From the NCBI GenBank assembly GCA_903929355.1, contig CAIYUN010000081.1:1-64000 (forward strand): a DNA stretch of 64,000 nucleotides. The letters run 5' to 3'. Positions 14,168 to 23,111 of this stretch are shown here, piece after piece (position 1 is the stretch's first letter; every line of letters starts with the position of its first letter). The DNA comes from an uncultured Opitutaceae bacterium (GTDB taxonomy: Bacteria > Verrucomicrobiota > Verrucomicrobiia > Opitutales > Opitutaceae). The position numbers and the translations under genes are program-made. Under the pieces are notes generated by a model that saw only the letters and a list, made by a program, of their open reading frames with translations, searched no databases and was not told where the DNA came from.

Positions 14168-15109
14168 TCACTTCTTCTTGAAGCGGCGCTGGAACCAGCG
14201 GCGCAGGTGCCGGTACCAGCGGTATTTTTCCATGTCCGGCGGAGTAAAGAGCTTCTCGCCCCACAGCTGCATGCGTTGGAACTGCCGGGCCAGGCGCGAG
14301 GCCAGCACAAGATTGGGGTCGGTGGACGGGGCAAAAATCCGCACGGTGCGCAGCCGGGGGGTCTGGTCCCAGATGATGAAAAACAGGACAAACCCCAGCA
14401 GGGCGATCGCGGCGTATTTGGACGCGGCAAGGACCATCCCCCGGACCAGCTGGGACCGGGCCAGATCGGCGGCCGTGTTGATCTCCTTGACCCGGCTGCC
14501 CGCGAGCTCGGCCACGGCGGCCCGCATCACGTCAAGCGGAGGAGTTTTGCCCGCCAGTTTGGCCCCCTGGACCAAGTCAATGTAGATGAGGTGCAGTTGG
14601 GCCTCCCCCAGAGTGGGCGCCTCCTTTTGCGCCCGTTGCATGACCACGACCTGATTGTGATTCTGGAGATTGAGATTGTTCAGGTCGCGGCGATAGAGCT
14701 GTTCCGTGGCGTAGACACACAGCACCCCCAAGGCGAGGTGGAGCAGACAGGCAGCCAGGGTCGAGTGGGAGGCGAGCTTGAGCGCCACCCGGCTCGTTTT
14801 TCTCCGGGGATCCTCCAAGCCGGGCCAGAAGAGGAGCGCGTAGCCCAGCAGGAGAAAGGCCGTCCGCTCCAACAGCTGGCTGGCCAAGGTGTAGTTGGCC
14901 GTCGGATCCGCCCATTTGTAGTCAAGCAACTGCGGCACCAAGCCGATGAGATAAAGCCCGAGCAAACCCGCCCCGATGGCGCGGGGGAGCTGGTTGCCCA
15001 AGGATCCGAGCAGACTGGTCCGCTTGGGAGGCATCCCCAAAGTGCCCTTGGAGTCCCCGGCGGCCAGGGAAGAGCCATCGGCGGGGTCCGGGAAGGGTTT
15101 CGTGATCAT
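14168..15109 (-). CDS. HpsJ-like membrane protein of the exosortase module
   Basis: A 313-residue protein with several hydrophobic segments: about 40-60 (AIGAGLLGLYLIGLVPQLLD), 78-98, 112-135 and 225-245. The first block, followed by LASQLLERTAFLLLGYALLF, resembles HpsJ-family proteins that accompany cyanobacterial exosortases. A region between the third and fourth segments is probably extracytoplasmic. The C-terminus is strongly basic (RRWFQRRFKKK). Its start overlaps the exosortase stop by ATGA (15106-15109), so the two proteins are very likely made together. Confidence 0.68.
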   Translation of the reverse strand: MITKPFPDPADGSSLAAGDSKGTLGMPPKRTSLLGSLGNQLPRAIGAGLLGLYLIGLVPQLLDYKWADPTANYTLASQLLERTAFLLLGYALLFWPGLEDPRRKTSRVALKLASHSTLAACLLHLALGVLCVYATEQLYRRDLNNLNLQNHNQVVVMQRAQKEAPTLGEAQLHLIYIDLVQGAKLAGKTPPLDVMRAAVAELAGSRVKEINTAADLARSQLVRGMVLAASKYAAIALLGFVLFFIIWDQTPRLRTVRIFAPSTDPNLVLASRLARQFQRMQLWGEKLFTPPDMEKYRWYRHLRRWFQRRFKKK

Positions 15110-16683
15110 GGTGCCGGCGGGATGGGACTCCCGCCAGCGGACAACAAGGTTGCGGCCATGTCCAGCCCGGATGTCATCAGCCGGCCCGTCGCCGCGGGCA
15201 CGGCCGGCCCACCCGCGGCCGCTGCAGGCCAGGCCACGGCAATCCACAGCGCGCGCTTGTCCAGCAGCGGCCCCTGTCCGGCAAGCAAACGGGCCCAGCG
15301 CGCCGGCTGCCAGCGCTGGCCGTGCAGCCATTGCATCCAACGGTCCGGGGTCGCGCGCGCCACCCCGTCGGGGTCGGCAAAGGTCACCCACCACCGGTCG
15401 TTGGCCCCGGTCCAGGTCGCCACTGGCAGGGCCAGGCCGGGCCGCACCGCGTCTGGCGCGGCGGACACAGCCAGGGGATCAAAGCCCTGGAGGTAAATCA
15501 ACTGGGCCGGATCGCCGCCCAGTACTTCAGGGGCGTATCCGATCAGAAAGCGCGCCCGACCCGCCGGCGTATCCACCACCCACTCGTCCGCCTGGGTCAA
15601 CGGCTTGTCGGTGCCGATGGCTTCTGCCGTCCAGGCCATCTGGCGGTGCGAGACCAGTTGCCAGCCGGCGGGGGGAACCCAAGCGACCGAAACCGACCGA
15701 GACACTACTGGGGGCCGCCCCCACCAAGAGAAAACCGCGGCGGCCACCACCAACGCGAGCACCAGGCGGCCGGCGCGCGAGGTCGTGGCCCGGGGCACCG
15801 GCCGCGCCAGCCACTCGGGCGCGCGGGCGCCAGCCACCATGCCCCAGCCGATGATGGCCAGCGCCGCGGCCGTGAAGAGGCTCGCCCCCTCGTCGCCATG
15901 CCAATAGTGAAACCGCTCCGGCTGCGGCGCCACGATCGCCAGCCAGGCGCAACGTACGACGGAGACCGCAAAAGCCACCGGCACGACCAGCAGGGTCAGG
16001 ACCAGGGTGCGGCGCCAGGTGAGGCGGAGCAGCAGCGCGCCCGGCACCAGCGTTTTGGCCAGCGCCTGCACCAGGGGAAGGCACGTGCAGCGCACCAAAA
16101 CCTCCACGCGGATGTTCCCCAGCAGGATGTTCGGACCCTCCACTTCGTTGGCATGGCCGGTCAGCGACAGGAGCCGTCCCGCCATCCGGGCCGTCGCGGC
16201 ACTCACGGCGCCGCTCGCATCAAGCTGGGTGAGCCAGAGCATCGCGGGCCACCACAGCCAGAAGAGCATCGCGAACCAGCCCGGCAGACCCGGCCGGACG
16301 GAACCCACCCCGCCGACCAGCACGGCCACGGCCGGCAACAGCAGCAACGGGGCCGCCCGCAGAATCCAAAAATCAGCGGGCGATGCGACCTGCAGCAGGC
16401 GCAGCGCCAGCAACACCCCGCCGGTGGCCAGAATGGCCGACCCCAGCCCGGGGGGACGCGCGTGCCGGCAGCCGGCATTGATCAGCCACCACGCGGCCCC
16501 GGCGAGAAAAACCGTGGCCACCAGGGCCTCGTCCATCAGCGGGGCGACCCGCCACCACGCGACCGCGGCCGACCCGGCGGCCAGCCAGAGGACGGCCCAC
16601 GCCGGCGCCGCCCGCAGCGCGCGTGGTTCCGCCGGATCCGGGGCGGGCGCGGCGATCGGGCCGCCGGTTGCTGGCATGGACAT
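15106..16683 (-). CDS. Exosortase (cyanoexosortase-like) with C-terminal associated domain
   Basis: A 525-residue membrane protease/transpeptidase candidate. The first ~290 residues have about eight hydrophobic segments and the exosortase catalytic positions: Cys in VLVRCTCLPLVQ (199 or 201), Arg in SVVRCAWLAI (244) and His in HYWHGDEGASLF (262). Exosortases process proteins with C-terminal sorting signals. Residues ~300-320 form another helix, followed by a ~190-residue extracytoplasmic domain that resembles exosortase-associated (EpsI/CrtB-like) proteins, here fused. ATG at 16683 is chosen; TTG lies one codon upstream. Confidence 0.8.
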   Translation of the reverse strand: MSMPATGGPIAAPAPDPAEPRALRAAPAWAVLWLAAGSAAVAWWRVAPLMDEALVATVFLAGAAWWLINAGCRHARPPGLGSAILATGGVLLALRLLQVASPADFWILRAAPLLLLPAVAVLVGGVGSVRPGLPGWFAMLFWLWWPAMLWLTQLDASGAVSAATARMAGRLLSLTGHANEVEGPNILLGNIRVEVLVRCTCLPLVQALAKTLVPGALLLRLTWRRTLVLTLLVVPVAFAVSVVRCAWLAIVAPQPERFHYWHGDEGASLFTAAALAIIGWGMVAGARAPEWLARPVPRATTSRAGRLVLALVVAAAVFSWWGRPPVVSRSVSVAWVPPAGWQLVSHRQMAWTAEAIGTDKPLTQADEWVVDTPAGRARFLIGYAPEVLGGDPAQLIYLQGFDPLAVSAAPDAVRPGLALPVATWTGANDRWWVTFADPDGVARATPDRWMQWLHGQRWQPARWARLLAGQGPLLDKRALWIAVAWPAAAAGGPAVPAATGRLMTSGLDMAATLLSAGGSPIPPAP

Positions 16684-16690
16684 CAAGCAA

Positions 16691-16716
16691 TAAAAAAGCC
16701 GGCCCGAGGCCGGCTT
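16691..16716 (-). terminator. Intrinsic terminator after the sorting-signal protein gene
   Basis: On the minus strand AAGCCGGCC-TCG-GGCCGGCTT is followed by TTTTTA. The 9-bp perfect stem and U-tract lie between the secreted protein gene (ending 16753) and the exosortase start, so the abundant substrate mRNA could end here with limited read-through into the exosortase. Confidence 0.88.
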
Positions 16717-16752
16717 GGCAAACAGAGAAGCAGGTTTGGCGCAAACCCGGGA

Positions 16753-17571
16753 TCAGACCCCGGCCATGACGCGCAGCTGTTTCAGGCCACCCGTTTGATA
16801 GAGGCGGAGGCCGGCCATCAGCATGATCAAACCCATGCCCAACCATTGCATGGGCGTAAAGGGAACGGCGAAACCCAACGTCATGTTGCCGCCGACGAAG
16901 GAGAAGGGATTGTCCACATACCCGGTGTTGCCCAGATCCAACAAACCGGCGGAGATCAGGCCACCGGTGTCGTTAAGCAGCGCCAGAATCTGGTCGCCCT
17001 GCGCGCTCCCCACCACAAAACTAAAGCTGCCGTTGGTCAGAGTGTTGCCAAAGCCGTTGAGCAACACACCGGTGTTGAGCAACTCGGTCGAATTCAATGC
17101 CCCGCCCAACTGGGAACTCGGGCTGGTGACCGTGCCTTGCAGCACCAGCGCGATGTCGTTGAAATCAAAACTGCTGCTGGTCGTGTCCAGGCCAAACAAG
17201 GAAAGGGAGACGCTGACCACGCCGATGGTGGTCGGCAGGCCGCCGGGGGTGTTCACCGCATTGGAGAAATCAAAAATACCCGGCGCGATGAGGGCGTCAG
17301 GATTGAGCGGATCATTGTCCCCGGTGTAGGTCCCAAACACCACCGGCGTCCCGAAATTCGGACTGTTCTCCGTGTCCAACACCGGATCATCCGCATTCAC
17401 GCGGATATTGCCGTTCACCACATGCGTGCCGCTCCCAGAAAGGGAGATCGATTGCGAGATCGCCAAAGTCTGGGCTTGGGCGGGAGCAACCACCATCGCC
17501 AACGCGAACACCAGCGCGCTACCAAGGACGGCACGGCTTGCAACGGAACGGGGGAGGGGATTCGGGTTCAT
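16753..17571 (-). CDS. Secreted protein with putative C-terminal exosortase sorting signal
   Basis: A 272-residue protein with a signal peptide (about 1-33, ending VAPAQAQ), a Ser/Thr/Asn-rich body with many short beta-type segments, and a tripartite C-terminus at 236-272: VPFTPMQW, a hydrophobic stretch GLIMLMAGLRLY, then basic KQLRV. The layout is that of PEP-CTERM-like substrates, but the motif is not the standard PEP, VPDSG or IPTL. It lies directly upstream of the exosortase, so it is the probable dedicated substrate. No body domain is recognised. Confidence 0.72.
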   Translation of the reverse strand: MNPNPLPRSVASRAVLGSALVFALAMVVAPAQAQTLAISQSISLSGSGTHVVNGNIRVNADDPVLDTENSPNFGTPVVFGTYTGDNDPLNPDALIAPGIFDFSNAVNTPGGLPTTIGVVSVSLSLFGLDTTSSSFDFNDIALVLQGTVTSPSSQLGGALNSTELLNTGVLLNGFGNTLTNGSFSFVVGSAQGDQILALLNDTGGLISAGLLDLGNTGYVDNPFSFVGGNMTLGFAVPFTPMQWLGMGLIMLMAGLRLYQTGGLKQLRVMAGV

Positions 17572-17812: not shown

Positions 17813-18190
17813 ATGAAGCAAATCACCCCGCTGCTGCTTGTGGTACTTTTGGGATCGGGTCTCGTCGGCGCCGCCCATGCCGGTGACCGAACCCGAACGA
17901 CCTCCGCCGATAAAAATTCGCCGGTCTCCACCCCGGCCACCGCCGCGCCCGACCCCGTCTGGCTCGCCAAGGCGATTGCCGCCTACCCGCTCGACACCTG
18001 TGTGGTGGGCGGCGACAAGCTGGGCGGCGACATGGGCCCTCCGGTCAACCACATCTTCAAACAGGCGGGCCAGCCCGACCGGCTCGTCCGTTTTTGCTGC
18101 CAGGGCTGCGTCGAGGATTTCACCGCCAACCCGGCGAAATTCCTGAAGATGATCGACGACGCCACGGCCGCGAAAGCGAAGAAAAACTAA
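17813..18190 (+). CDS. Periplasmic YPLDTC-type putative metal-binding protein
   Basis: A 125-residue exported protein: signal peptide at 1-23 (LLLVVLLGSGLVGAAHA), a Thr/Pro-rich linker, then a compact domain with AAYPLDTCVVGGDKLG and RFCCQGCVEDFTANPAKFL. The Cys and paired Cys residues resemble a heavy-metal-associated TRASH-like arrangement seen in small periplasmic proteins of Planctomycetes and Verrucomicrobia. Metal binding is inferred from the cysteines. It ends seven bases from the convergent GH127 gene. Confidence 0.75.
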   Translation: MKQITPLLLVVLLGSGLVGAAHAGDRTRTTSADKNSPVSTPATAAPDPVWLAKAIAAYPLDTCVVGGDKLGGDMGPPVNHIFKQAGQPDRLVRFCCQGCVEDFTANPAKFLKMIDDATAAKAKKN

Positions 18191-18196
18191 CCGGCC

Positions 18197-20935
18197 TCAC
18201 TGGTCGCGCATCCACACAATGGAGCGGCCCCCGCGGTTGAGCCGGGCGTAGTTGGGGATCGCGGTCAACGGGCTGCCGTCGGCAAAGGCGCCGGTGATCA
18301 CGCGCACCCCGCCGAGGAGATCGGGGCGCCACTCGGTGGTCAGCGCGGCGCCGGGTGCCAGCACCCGGTCCAGATTCTGGTCCACGCTCTCCAGGTTGTA
18401 GATGAGCGGCCCGTAGCGCAGGGCCACGCGGCCGGCGTCGGCCGCGACCCGGTTGTCGGCCTTGACGCGCGTCACCTCCATCGGAAGGACCAACTCAACC
18501 TTGTCCCCCGCCTGCCAGGTGCGGGTGACGACCGCGTAGCCTTGGTCCATGACAGGGACGACCGGCTGCCCGTTCACTGCCAGTGACACCAGGCGGGCGG
18601 GCCTCGTGAGATGAAGGGCGGTGTACAGCGCGCTGACGTTGCGGTTCGGCACGCGGATGCGGACGGAAAAGCTCCGGGGGGCGGCGGGATTGACGGTGAG
18701 CGCGACGCTGCCACTCCAGGGGTAATCGGTGGTCTGGACGAGCTGGACGTCGGTGCCGGCAACCTCACCCACGCTGACCGTGCTGCCGGCGAAGAGGTTC
18801 ACGCAGATGCTGTCGGGGCTCTTGGCATACATCCAGGTGGGCAGCATGAGGAGGGTGCGGGGGAAGTTGCTCACGCAGCACGGGCAGGTGTGCCAGGCAT
18901 AACGGGCGTTGCCGCGGCCCGGCAGGGCGCCGTCGCCGCCGGACGCGTCCAAGGGGTTGGTATAGTTGAAATACCCGCCGGTCAGGTCGTAGTCGCCGAG
19001 AATGGCGTTGTAAAAGGTGTCCTCATAGAGGTCGGCGAACTTCGCGTCCTGGTAGGTCAGGTTGAGTTTGTGCTGGAAAAAGAGGACCCCGCAGTTGGAG
19101 CAGGACTCGCAGTAGGAGTTGTTGGGGAGGGAATAGTTCCGGCCGAAGCCCTCGGAGGTCTCGCCGCTGCCGATGCCGCCGGTGAGGTAGTATTTTTTGT
19201 TCACCAGGTTGTCCCAGAGCGAGAGCACCGCGCTCTGATAGTCGGGGTCGCGGGTCTCCATCGCGACGGCCGCCATGCCGGCGTAGAGGTAGGTGGCGCG
19301 GACCGCATGGCCCACGGCCTCGTATTGCTGTACGACCGGGACCAGGGACTGGTCGTAGGTCGACGCGCCGCCCTGGCGGCAGTCGAGGAGGAACTTGGCG
19401 AGCGCGATGTAGCGGGTGCCCTGGCCCGGCCCCTCGGTGTCGTTGACGAACCGGCCGAAGCGGACCAGCGCCTGCTCCATCTCCTCATGGCCGTCATACC
19501 AGGCTTTTTTCGGGGCGGGGCCGAGATGGGCGTCCCAGCAGTCGGCCAGCTTCTTCGCGGCGTCGTAGAGGCGGGAGTCCTTTTTTCCCGTCATCTGGTA
19601 GTGCGCGATGGCCGCTTCGAGGAAATAGCCCGCCACATAACCCTCATGCTGGTCCCGCGTGCGGGGGTCCCAGTGCTGGCCGCCGTTCAGGGTGAAGCGG
19701 GTCTGGAAATAGCCGTCGGGCTCCTGGGCGGCGAGAATGAGGGGGATCCATTCGTCGATTTTCGCGCGCATCGACTGCTGCGCGGCGATCATGGCGGGGT
19801 CGCCCTGCGGATCGACCTCGAGGGCGTCGGACATCGACTCGACCGTGTTGAAAATCCAGGCGTTGGAAAATGGGTAGCCGACATGGCGGGCGGCGGGCTG
19901 GCCGGCGAGTTTGCGGCCGGCCTGGATGAGATTGTCGATGCCGCCCTCCCTCAGGTTCAGATCCGAAATCTGCGCCATGCAATGGGGAATCCAGCTGGTG
20001 ATGAGGGTCTTGATCCGGTCATGCAGCAGCGGGCTGCTGACCTGGTAGGGCAGGGTGGCGATTTGTTCCAAAGGCGCCGCGGGTGGCGGCGCGGCCACGT
20101 GGACCTTCGCGGTGTCGGCGGCGACCAGCGCGCCCGACCCCGCCTGCAGGCGGAGGACATAGTCGCCGACTGCGGAAAACGTCGCGGTGGTGACTGCGGC
20201 GTGGGCGTCGGCAAACGTGACCGCGCCCGGACCGGAAGCCTGGCTCCAGACGAGGGTGGCTCCGGTGGCGCCGCCCCCCGGCGCTTTTACGCTGCCGTGG
20301 AGATAGGTTTTTCCACCAAGCACGACATCGCGATCCACCCCGGCCGCCACCGTCGGCGGGAACGCGGGCGAACGGCCCGAGTCCAGCACCCGCCACTCGA
20401 TGATGCCGGTGGAGATCCCGGTCCCGGCGGTCGCGCCGCCGGCGTCGATCTCGAGCCGCAGGCGCGTGGTCGTGACCTCGTCAAAGGAAGTGACGTTAAA
20501 CTGGTTGCCCGCGACGCCCAGCCCCACCGGATGGGCGACCGGGACAAACCGCGCCCCGTCCCAATAAAGCAGGCGGCAGGCGCGGGGGAAGCCGATCCCC
20601 TGGCCGTCGTTCCACCAATACACCTCGGTCCGGTTGGTGCTGATGGGCTGGCTCCACTCATACTGCACCCACTGGGTGCCGGTGCGGTTCCAGTTGCCAT
20701 AGGTGCCATGAGTCGCGTCGCGCGAATTGCGCGGGGTGAAATCGTCGTTGAGCGCCGCGAGCGACGTGTCGCCCGATACATAGGAGCCCGACGCGGTCGC
20801 GACCAAGGCGAGGTTGAGGGGATCGGCCGCCGGCTGGGCCCAGCCGGTGCGGGCAAACCCCACCAGCAAACTGACGACCGTGAGCACGCGGGCAGGGAGA
20901 ACCAGGGCAAAGCGAGCCATCAGGGTGGGAGACAT
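18197..20935 (-). CDS. Secreted GH127-type beta-L-arabinofuranosidase
   Basis: A 912-residue secreted glycosidase. Signal peptide (about 1-33, ending GWAQP), an F5/8 type C-like carbohydrate-binding domain (about 40-180), an Ig/PKD-like domain (about 195-285), then the GH127 (former DUF1680) catalytic domain. Zinc-site residues of GH127 can be matched: YCESCSNCG (Glu and Cys) and WHTCPCCVSNFPR (paired Cys). The family releases L-arabinofuranose from plant or algal glycans. The start MSPTLMARFALVL is favoured over the longer frame because it gives a clean signal peptide. Confidence 0.9.
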   Translation of the reverse strand: MSPTLMARFALVLPARVLTVVSLLVGFARTGWAQPAADPLNLALVATASGSYVSGDTSLAALNDDFTPRNSRDATHGTYGNWNRTGTQWVQYEWSQPISTNRTEVYWWNDGQGIGFPRACRLLYWDGARFVPVAHPVGLGVAGNQFNVTSFDEVTTTRLRLEIDAGGATAGTGISTGIIEWRVLDSGRSPAFPPTVAAGVDRDVVLGGKTYLHGSVKAPGGGATGATLVWSQASGPGAVTFADAHAAVTTATFSAVGDYVLRLQAGSGALVAADTAKVHVAAPPPAAPLEQIATLPYQVSSPLLHDRIKTLITSWIPHCMAQISDLNLREGGIDNLIQAGRKLAGQPAARHVGYPFSNAWIFNTVESMSDALEVDPQGDPAMIAAQQSMRAKIDEWIPLILAAQEPDGYFQTRFTLNGGQHWDPRTRDQHEGYVAGYFLEAAIAHYQMTGKKDSRLYDAAKKLADCWDAHLGPAPKKAWYDGHEEMEQALVRFGRFVNDTEGPGQGTRYIALAKFLLDCRQGGASTYDQSLVPVVQQYEAVGHAVRATYLYAGMAAVAMETRDPDYQSAVLSLWDNLVNKKYYLTGGIGSGETSEGFGRNYSLPNNSYCESCSNCGVLFFQHKLNLTYQDAKFADLYEDTFYNAILGDYDLTGGYFNYTNPLDASGGDGALPGRGNARYAWHTCPCCVSNFPRTLLMLPTWMYAKSPDSICVNLFAGSTVSVGEVAGTDVQLVQTTDYPWSGSVALTVNPAAPRSFSVRIRVPNRNVSALYTALHLTRPARLVSLAVNGQPVVPVMDQGYAVVTRTWQAGDKVELVLPMEVTRVKADNRVAADAGRVALRYGPLIYNLESVDQNLDRVLAPGAALTTEWRPDLLGGVRVITGAFADGSPLTAIPNYARLNRGGRSIVWMRDQ

Positions 20936-21145
20936 AAAGGCAACGGGGTTAGACCAACGGGCCGGCCGGAGGGGGGTGACGGTCGGCCAGGGGGAGGGGG
21001 TGGTGCCAGCCTCCGACCGGGCGCGCCGCCGGGCAAGGGGGAAATTCACCGTGAACGAGGCCGCCCACGGCTGATTCACGAAGGAAGCGATGGGGAGACC
21101 ACAAGGACAGGGCCTTCGCCCATGACCTACCCAAACAAAAACCTG

Positions 21146-21239
21146 TAACCACTTATGCACACTAATTTTCACTGATCCGATCCTCAGAATCAGGGTTCAT
21201 CAGGGTCAATCAGTGGTTGAAATCCGACCGTTGGAAAAG
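21146..21239 (+). repeat. 94-bp dispersed repeat, copy 1
   Basis: Starts TAACCACTTATGCACACTAA and contains tandem CACTGAT/TCATCAGGGTCAATCAG motifs. Its reverse complement occurs at 49880-49973 with most positions unchanged. It sits in the 454-bp gap between the GH127 start and a lipoprotein gene; the remainder (20936-21145 and 21240-21389) shows no clear feature. Confidence 0.9.
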
Positions 21240-21389
21240 TTCTCATCCAAGTGTTCCAGGAGTTGTTGGGTCATTCATAATCATTGGGTTGGAGTCATCC
21301 ATGAATCGGCACGGCGAGGTCGCCCGGCCGCCGATCCGTCTCCACAGTTGCCAGCGCAGCAGTACCGGGCATGTTGAGGGGAAACCACC

Positions 21390-21833
21390 ATGAAAACCGC
21401 CCGTCTGCCACTGACGCTTTTGCTCGCCCTCATGGCGCTCGCCGCCGGGTGCAGCACCTTTCAAGGCCGTGCGACGGAGAAGGCCGTGGTCTTCAGCGCG
21501 CTCGACCCCGCCACCCAGGCGCGCCTGAAGGAAGGGCTGCTGCAAATCGGCGACACCATGGACATGGCGTATATTGCGCTCGGGGAACCGGACGAGAAAC
21601 GTGACCAGATCAGCGCCGCGGGCGGCGCGGTCGTGTGGATCTACCACAGGTTTTGGCAGGACTACCAAGGCGAGGCGCTCGTGGGCTACCGGACGATCCG
21701 CGCGGGCGGGCCCGGGGTCGCCCCACTCTACGCGCCGGTGACAGAAGGGGTTTATCAGGGCCGCGAGGAAGAGTATCTGCGCGTGACGTTCAAGGACGGC
21801 AAAGTCACGGTGATCGAACGGCCGAAGGCGTAG
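21390..21833 (+). CDS. Small lipoprotein of unknown function
   Basis: A 147-residue protein with a lipoprotein signal (lipobox LAAGC, Cys21) and a mature domain with ALGEPDEKRDQIS and RVTFKDGKVTVIERPK. The block ending in a two-strand VTFKDGKV unit is reminiscent of SmpA/BamE-like or DUF-type outer-membrane lipoproteins, in which a GxP loop precedes a beta hairpin, but no family can be named securely. It would be anchored on the periplasmic face of a membrane. It is convergent with gpsA and separated from it by a palindromic repeat. Confidence 0.75.
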   Translation: MKTARLPLTLLLALMALAAGCSTFQGRATEKAVVFSALDPATQARLKEGLLQIGDTMDMAYIALGEPDEKRDQISAAGGAVVWIYHRFWQDYQGEALVGYRTIRAGGPGVAPLYAPVTEGVYQGREEEYLRVTFKDGKVTVIERPKA

Positions 21834-21850
21834 TCACCCCGGAGCAATGG

Positions 21851-21926
21851 CAGGTGGCGCGCGTTGACCCAACGCGCTGAAGCTTGGAGCCCGCGGGCAC
21901 GCGCGTTAGGGTCAACGCGCTCCACC
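21851..21926. repeat. Nested GCGCGTTG palindromes between convergent genes
   Basis: Two hairpins, GCGCGTTG-ACC-CAACGCGC (21859-21877) and GCGCGTT-AGGGTC-AACGCGC (21901-21920), which are also complementary to each other through flanking GGTGG/CCACC. A third hairpin of this sequence lies inside the gene at 26089-28326. It may act as a bidirectional terminator, though no U-tract follows. Confidence 0.85.
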
Positions 21927-21944
21927 TTTCGATCCCCCGATCCC

Positions 21945-22943
21945 TCACTCGCGCTTCAAGCCGCGGCCCATGAGCGCGGCGAGTGCGGCGGCGGGAGGCC
22001 GGTTTTCGAAAAGGACCCGGCGCATCTCAGCCAGGATGGGCGCGTCGAGTCCGCGTCCGGCGCAGAGCTCCGCAAACGAGCCCGTCGTGCGATAGCCCTC
22101 CACAACCGTGCGACGGCCGGCCAGCAGCTCCGCCACCGACCTGCCCTCACCGAGCAAAAACCCGAACTCCCGGTTGCGGCTCCACGCGCCGTGGCAGGTC
22201 GCCACGAGGTCGCCGAAGCCGCTTAACCCGTAAAACGTCTCTGCCCTCGCACCCAGCGCGACACCCACGCGCACCATTTCCGCCAGCGCCCGGGTGAGGA
22301 GCGCGGCCCGGGCGTTGTCACCGAGTCGCAGGCCGTCGCAGCAGCCGGCGGCGATGGCATACACGTTCTTGAGACAGCCGCCGATCTCGGCGCCCGTCAC
22401 ATCGTCCGTGGTGTAGAGGCGCAGGGTCGGTCCGCTCAGGGCCGCCTGGGCCGTGGCGAGCAATTCGTCCGCGCCGGCCACGGCGAGCACCATCGCGGCG
22501 GGCTGGCCGCGCGCGACCTCCTCGGCGTGGCTCGGGCCGGTGAGCGTGCCGGCGGCAACCCCGGGCAGCACGGCGGTGATGACCTCGCTCGGCCGCAGAT
22601 GCGTGCCGGCCTCGAGCCCCTTGGCGAGGCTGACGACCAGCTTGAGCCGGTGGTCCGCGGGCAGGTGGTCGCGCAAACGGGTGGAAGTCTCGCGCAGGGC
22701 CTGTGACGGGCAGGCGAGCAGCACGAGCTCGGCCTCCATGAGCACGGGGGTGAGCTCATGGCCGAGCTGGAGGCTGGGGGGGAGCGGGAGGCCGGGCAGG
22801 TAGTCGGTGTTCTCGCGCGCGGAGGCCAGGGCGAGCGCCTGCTCAAACCGGCGCGGCACCAGGGTGACGGTATGCCCGAGCCGGGAAAGGTGGATCGCAA
22901 ACGCGGTGCCCCAGGCCCCCGCGCCAAGGATGGCGAAATTCAT
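21945..22943 (-). CDS. gpsA: Glycerol-3-phosphate dehydrogenase [NAD(P)+]
   Basis: A 332-residue enzyme that reduces dihydroxyacetone phosphate to sn-glycerol 3-phosphate for phospholipid synthesis. The N-terminal Rossmann motif is ILGAGAWGTAFA (residues 4-15), followed by LACPSQALRE, SLAKGLEAGT and GPSHAEEVARGQPAA. The catalytic Lys lies in GGCLKNVYAIAAG, and SGFGDLVATC with SRNREFG completes the pattern. Start MNFAILGAG is set by the Rossmann motif. It appears intact. Confidence 0.95.
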   Translation of the reverse strand: MNFAILGAGAWGTAFAIHLSRLGHTVTLVPRRFEQALALASARENTDYLPGLPLPPSLQLGHELTPVLMEAELVLLACPSQALRETSTRLRDHLPADHRLKLVVSLAKGLEAGTHLRPSEVITAVLPGVAAGTLTGPSHAEEVARGQPAAMVLAVAGADELLATAQAALSGPTLRLYTTDDVTGAEIGGCLKNVYAIAAGCCDGLRLGDNARAALLTRALAEMVRVGVALGARAETFYGLSGFGDLVATCHGAWSRNREFGFLLGEGRSVAELLAGRRTVVEGYRTTGSFAELCAGRGLDAPILAEMRRVLFENRPPAAALAALMGRGLKRE

Positions 22944-23111
22944 GTCGGGCAGTTTGACCACGGATTCCACCAATTGGCACGGATTTTCCATCCCACTTGT
23001 CGCGCCACAGCGCAGCGACGGCGGATCCGTGTTGATCCATGTCCCTCACTGATCGCCTCTGGCGCCGCTTACGGCGGGTAAACCGTGGTTAAAACTCCGT
23101 CCCTCCGTGTT

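Follow-up and report, generated by a model that had tools for sequence, protein, structure and literature searches.

A probable cyanoexosortase A-like sorting module of three genes in an uncultured Opitutaceae bacterium

We describe three adjacent genes of an uncultured Opitutaceae bacterium (assembly GCA_903929355.1) that very probably form a divergent cyanoexosortase A-like sorting module with one substrate in this genome. They lie in a stretch of 64,000 nucleotides from contig CAIYUN010000081.1, referred to here as the window, and encode a secreted protein with a VPFTPMQW tail, a fused exosortase and an HpsJ-like membrane protein. What was obtained here are gene identities, conserved residues, gene order and the co-occurrence of tail and module; cleavage, transfer, topology and the role of HpsJ we infer by analogy with PEP-CTERM/exosortase systems (PMC1569441, PMC12188702). 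The conserved one-substrate operon, the pairs of tail gene and HpsJ gene in relatives, and a module of about 31% identity between flanks of about 80% all look new. A single-substrate operon of three genes represents a small system for the direct test of cleavage and attachment.

The three genes and their products

The three genes are present where the sequence-only reading had placed them, all on the minus strand, and the features of the locus are as follows.

16753-17571, minus strand: substrate gene (272 aa; signal peptide, Ser/Thr/Asn-rich body, VPFTPMQW tail)
16756-16866, minus strand: putative sorting tail (VPFTP motif with PFTP codons at 16863-16852, hydrophobic helix, basic end)
16696-16716, minus strand: terminator-like hairpin of 9 pairs followed by TTTTATT, between the substrate and enzyme genes
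15106-16683, minus strand: exosortase gene, cyanoexosortase A-like with a fused C-terminal domain (ATG at 16683 or 16677)
15898-16089, minus strand: span of the presumed catalytic Cys (16089-16087), Arg (15954-15952) and His (15900-15898) codons
15106-15783, minus strand: C-terminal region of the enzyme holding the accessory domain, with likeness to TIGR04153
14168-15109, minus strand: HpsJ-like A membrane protein gene (313 aa; ATGA overlap with the enzyme gene)

The ATGA behind the claimed translational coupling can be read directly in the sequence, where the HpsJ-like gene overlaps the exosortase stop codon, and the claimed terminator corresponds to the hairpin at 16716-16696. The hairpin scan is weak evidence by itself, because the scanned region holds 10 such sites against 4.8 expected; hairpins alike occur near the substrate/enzyme junction of two relatives (L015 and L016), and a terminator-like hairpin was looked for at that junction in a third (L014) and none was found. 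We recognised no polysaccharide gene cluster next to the module. A small gene at 17813-18190, divergent from the substrate gene, gave a weak YHS-domain match under the cut-off.

Far from lacking exosortase homology, which would tell against the identity proposed earlier, the enzyme scores over the cut-offs of Pfam PF09721 (49.3 bits against 25.7) and TIGR04178 (27.1 bits against 23), and its Cys, Arg and His are shared without exception by the eight relatives aligned with it (A5). Cyanoexosortase A (TIGR03763) is the best-scoring exosortase class at 62.4 bits, under its curated cut-off of 150. With regard to the motifs described in 2006 (PMC1569441), the enzyme departs in having CTC for C-x-G and SVVR for N-x-x-R. 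The suggestion of a fused EpsI/CrtB-type accessory held in that a fused domain is present, but this domain resembles the cyanoexosortase A-associated family TIGR04153, and such fusions are ordinary; the enzyme of the cyanobacterium Halotia is also fused to its associated domain, and EpsI fusions were already reported in 2006 (PMC1569441). This region of the window enzyme scores 15.3 bits against TIGR04153, under the curated cut-off of 100, as compared to 54 bits for an enzyme from another family of the order (L047) and 167 bits for Halotia, and the two sets match each other in a profile-profile comparison (E 2.8e-5, probability 74). Another exosortase of the same genome (L019:7259-9421) carries a fused DUF3485 domain.

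In the enzyme tree, the window enzyme falls with those of its family, of two further Opitutales families (f5 and f86) and of Halotia in a clade, starred in the tree, with support of 100/99 and apart from 16 other exosortases; the fused enzymes group at 95/93. Membership in a broad cyanoexosortase A-like clade is thus found, in a tree that has long branches and holds a single cyanobacterial sequence, that of Halotia.

The third protein was rightly read as an HpsJ-like partner, its best NCBIfam model being the HpsJ-like protein associated with cyanoexosortase A (HpsJ_like_A, NF050013; 78.2 bits over model positions 5-217 of 217, under the cut-off of 140), and a profile-profile comparison with relatives gave an E of 3e-14. 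The accompanying remark that HpsJ partners are known mainly with cyanobacterial exosortases needs the correction that HpsJ-like A also occurs outside cyanobacteria, as other families of the order carry two to four HpsJ-like A copies, several of them over the curated cut-off and the best at 142-164 bits. In the window's family the protein has a basic C-terminal extension beyond the model (window 14168-14350, L014:7750-7955, L015:8590-8785).

We call the module a divergent relative because the scores of the enzyme, its C-terminal domain and the HpsJ-like protein against TIGR03763, TIGR04153 and NF050013 are all under curated cut-offs. It would appear to be a self-contained sorting kit related to a system catalogued mainly in cyanobacteria, rather than a filed member of that system.

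The tail and its occurrence across the order

The substrate has an N-terminal signal peptide, a body in which Ser, Thr and Asn make up 30% and Cys and Lys are absent, which fits the composition pattern of PEP-CTERM proteins (PMC1569441), and a C-terminus of VPFTPMQW, a hydrophobic helix and a basic tail. A search with Pfam and NCBIfam profiles matched it to no family. The body is predicted to be beta-rich by a structure model of low confidence (the models have mean pLDDT values of 55 and 47); a fold search gave no usable match, and no solved structure matched either the enzyme or the substrate alignment.

Among the 200 family genomes searched, strong enzyme matches were found in G024, G001 and G079 in addition to the window's own genome. 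L014 and L015 show the order tail gene, enzyme, HpsJ, as does L016 for tail gene and enzyme, after which its contig ends. The substrates of the relatives align with the window's along their whole length with PFTP as the invariant block, and the three other genomes with this gene order have a [VI]PFTP tail. Because the order recurs at these three loci and the substrates align with PFTP invariant, the arrangement and its tail are beyond chance. Enzyme matches in G165 and G137 were short and weak, and the one in G110 (L017) is a different exosortase, next to which lie genes with VPDSG-type tails. A search of the phylum with alignment A1 (E<=1e-12, three candidates scored per genome) returned only the window's own genome, a result that we do not count as a sign of absence elsewhere, and a scan of genome contigs returned only loci from Opitutales/Opitutae metagenome-assembled genomes, all previously found in the genome search.

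The tail had been described as a non-standard signal, and it is indeed distinct from the genome's PEP-CTERM class. That class (PF07589) has about 16 matches over cut-off in the genome, the legible ones ending in VPEPST/IPEPT-type motifs; the window tail is absent among them and does not belong to PEP-CTERM as defined by a PEP motif together with a PF07589 match. The genome has two further exosortases, likely the partners of these PEP-CTERM tails; the window tail is of another class than theirs. It does not, however, stand outside classification: it is a shortened, PFE-CTERM-like form. The NCBIfam PFE-CTERM model (NF050011, cut-off 24 bits) did not report the window tail, gave 11.4 bits for the L016 tail and in the window's own genome made only matches with E above 1, whereas relatives in the order pass the cut-off (L045 32.2, L049 34.7, L149 31.7 and L053 34.7 bits). 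In other families of the order the passing tails sit on unrelated proteins. We found no paper on PFE-CTERM. A GPS-CTERM assignment for the L015, L016 and L147 tails was rejected, the match being under that model's cut-off. One tail-bearing protein (L045:4895-6382) consists mostly of Asp-rich repeats and is followed by an HpsJ gene.

A model built from nine PF tails made one strong match in the window's own genome, and within the window's family, where a genome has one strong tail, the earlier claim of a single substrate stands. Once the last 45 residues are removed, the tail-bearing proteins found fall into eight unrelated groups; eight unrelated bodies with the same tail are as expected of a sorting signal. 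The tail occurs in 5 of the 200 family genomes, namely the four with a strong enzyme match and G102, which has an enzyme remnant. Across the order, HpsJ_like_A (E<=1e-6) and the tail (E<=1e-5) mark the same 8 of 373 genomes; five of these supplied tails to the model, so the independent cases are G347, G408 and G652, all of one genus, and the more telling part of the result is that neither marker was found in the other 365 genomes. Co-occurrence had been proposed as a check; in the order, the PF tail goes with HpsJ and the CrtA-like enzyme, and genomes lacking these two gave no PF tail.

It could be argued that one or other of the genome's two further exosortases, both well conserved, processes the substrate and that the CrtA-like enzyme serves another target. 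We consider this very improbable, given that those two likely partner the PEP-CTERM tails and that the PF tail tracks the CrtA-like enzyme and HpsJ.

We favor instead a dedicated module. By analogy, Sec would export the substrate, which would stay anchored in the inner membrane by its PFTP tail, the motif exposed on the outside. The fused exosortase would then recognise the tail and cut near PFTP by way of its Cys/Arg/His site. The cut substrate might be released or handed on, possibly to a surface polysaccharide as acceptor, and the HpsJ-like protein may be a partner in the membrane, connecting the substrate and the enzyme with the acceptor or the export route. To our knowledge, what exosortases attach their substrates to has not been settled. 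The link of a Nostoc exosortase to polysaccharide is likewise still hypothetical (PMC12188702).

Other families of the order offer a view of what the HpsJ-like protein might do. At ten loci a tail gene is directly followed by an HpsJ gene with no enzyme (L045, L048, L049, L052, L053, L055, L056, L058, L151, L152), at six an enzyme gene has an adjoining HpsJ gene (L047, L050, L051, L054, L057, L154), and two HpsJ genes are solitary; the loci were drawn by way of HpsJ, tail or exosortase matches, and the count is descriptive and biased. The HpsJ tree joins the partners from L049, L053, L058 and L152, all of one substrate family, at 100/100; the partners of a second family (L048, L056, L151 and, less surely, L052) come together at 100/99. 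This grouping by substrate family fits co-inherited pairs. The pairing suggests a role for HpsJ, on whose association with exosortases we found no paper (other uses of the letters HPSJ are unrelated). We speculate, with somewhat less than even confidence, that HpsJ-like A is a substrate-cognate partner, each PF-tail family having its own HpsJ gene, such that HpsJ and not the enzyme alone would decide the sorted protein or its destination, and that the window's module represents the minimal one-substrate case.

Divergence and origin of the module

The window and L014 share 78% identity in the flanking gene gpsA and 80% in the flanking gene GH127, as compared to 31% in the enzymes. Over the whole of gpsA, the small gene and GH127 (window 18197-22991, L014:39-4554) identity is 61-80%, and that of the module proteins about 30-36%. 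The other exosortases of the genome are 69% (L129) and 60% (L138) identical to their counterparts in G024. The module either changes rapidly or has been swapped for another at the same site.

Alternatively, the module might be decaying, its enzyme activity lost and the window copy drifting, which would account for a long branch and low identity. The window enzyme does have a terminal branch of 1.87, longer than any other in its clade, and the contrast of about 31% identity with the 78-80% of the flanks, the departure from the C-x-G motif and a tail that is weakly basic all point the same way. In G102 (L147), moreover, an intact substrate gene is followed by a stretch in which enzyme residues 1-133 lead straight into HpsJ at about its residue 75 (L147:8822-9867). 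Either the core of the enzyme and the beginning of HpsJ seem to have been deleted there, or the assembly is wrong at this point. The window copy, however, has three open frames with Cys, Arg and His in place, an unbroken ATGA overlap and terminator, and a substrate that retains PFTP, and we regard decay as quite unlikely.

The sequence-only reading had also proposed a cyanobacterium-like source. A recent gain from a cyanobacterium would bear on origin and leave function unaffected; for it speak the closest named models, which are cyanobacterial, the same HpsJ and fused-enzyme pair in Halotia, the patchy presence in the family (5 of 200) and neighbour genes that vary among genomes of one genus. 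Third-position GC is nevertheless 0.77-0.85 in the module against 0.81-0.87 in its neighbours, related systems exist in other families of the order, and Halotia and L047 are unordered in a tree that includes one cyanobacterial enzyme. Recent gain is thus not established, and we rate it unlikely, if a little less so than decay.

Comparison with known systems

Compared to PEP-CTERM/EpsH systems (TIGR02602, PF07589), the module is alike in its signal peptide, its motif-helix-basic tail and its multi-pass Cys/Arg/His enzyme, to which an EpsI-type accessory can be fused there as well; those systems differ in their PEP motif, in usually having several substrates per genome, and in that HpsJ lies outside the system as described. 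The cyanoexosortase B of Nostoc punctiforme, an exosortase tied to surface polysaccharide function by a deletion mutant, belongs to another exosortase family than the window's and has PEP-CTERM substrates (PMC12188702). PFE-CTERM (NF050011) shares with the window tail the PF motif, hydrophobic helix and basic end, the window having the shortened PFTP form.

The closest comparison is the cyanoexosortase A system (TIGR03763, TIGR04153, NF050013) on a plasmid of Halotia branconii (NZ_CP124544.1), where the pair sits in a polysaccharide region. Unlike its filed members, the window's proteins score far below the curated cut-offs, and the order of tail, enzyme and HpsJ in the window differs from HpsJ then enzyme in Halotia. 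The PF-tail model matched nothing on the Halotia plasmid. Two secreted proteins near the pair there (L164:4060-6283) have IPGGAT-type tails with no PFE-CTERM match. The two systems nonetheless share the same profile families and one starred clade of the enzyme tree, and in Halotia, as in the window, an HpsJ-like gene lies beside a fused exosortase, there of 522 aa.
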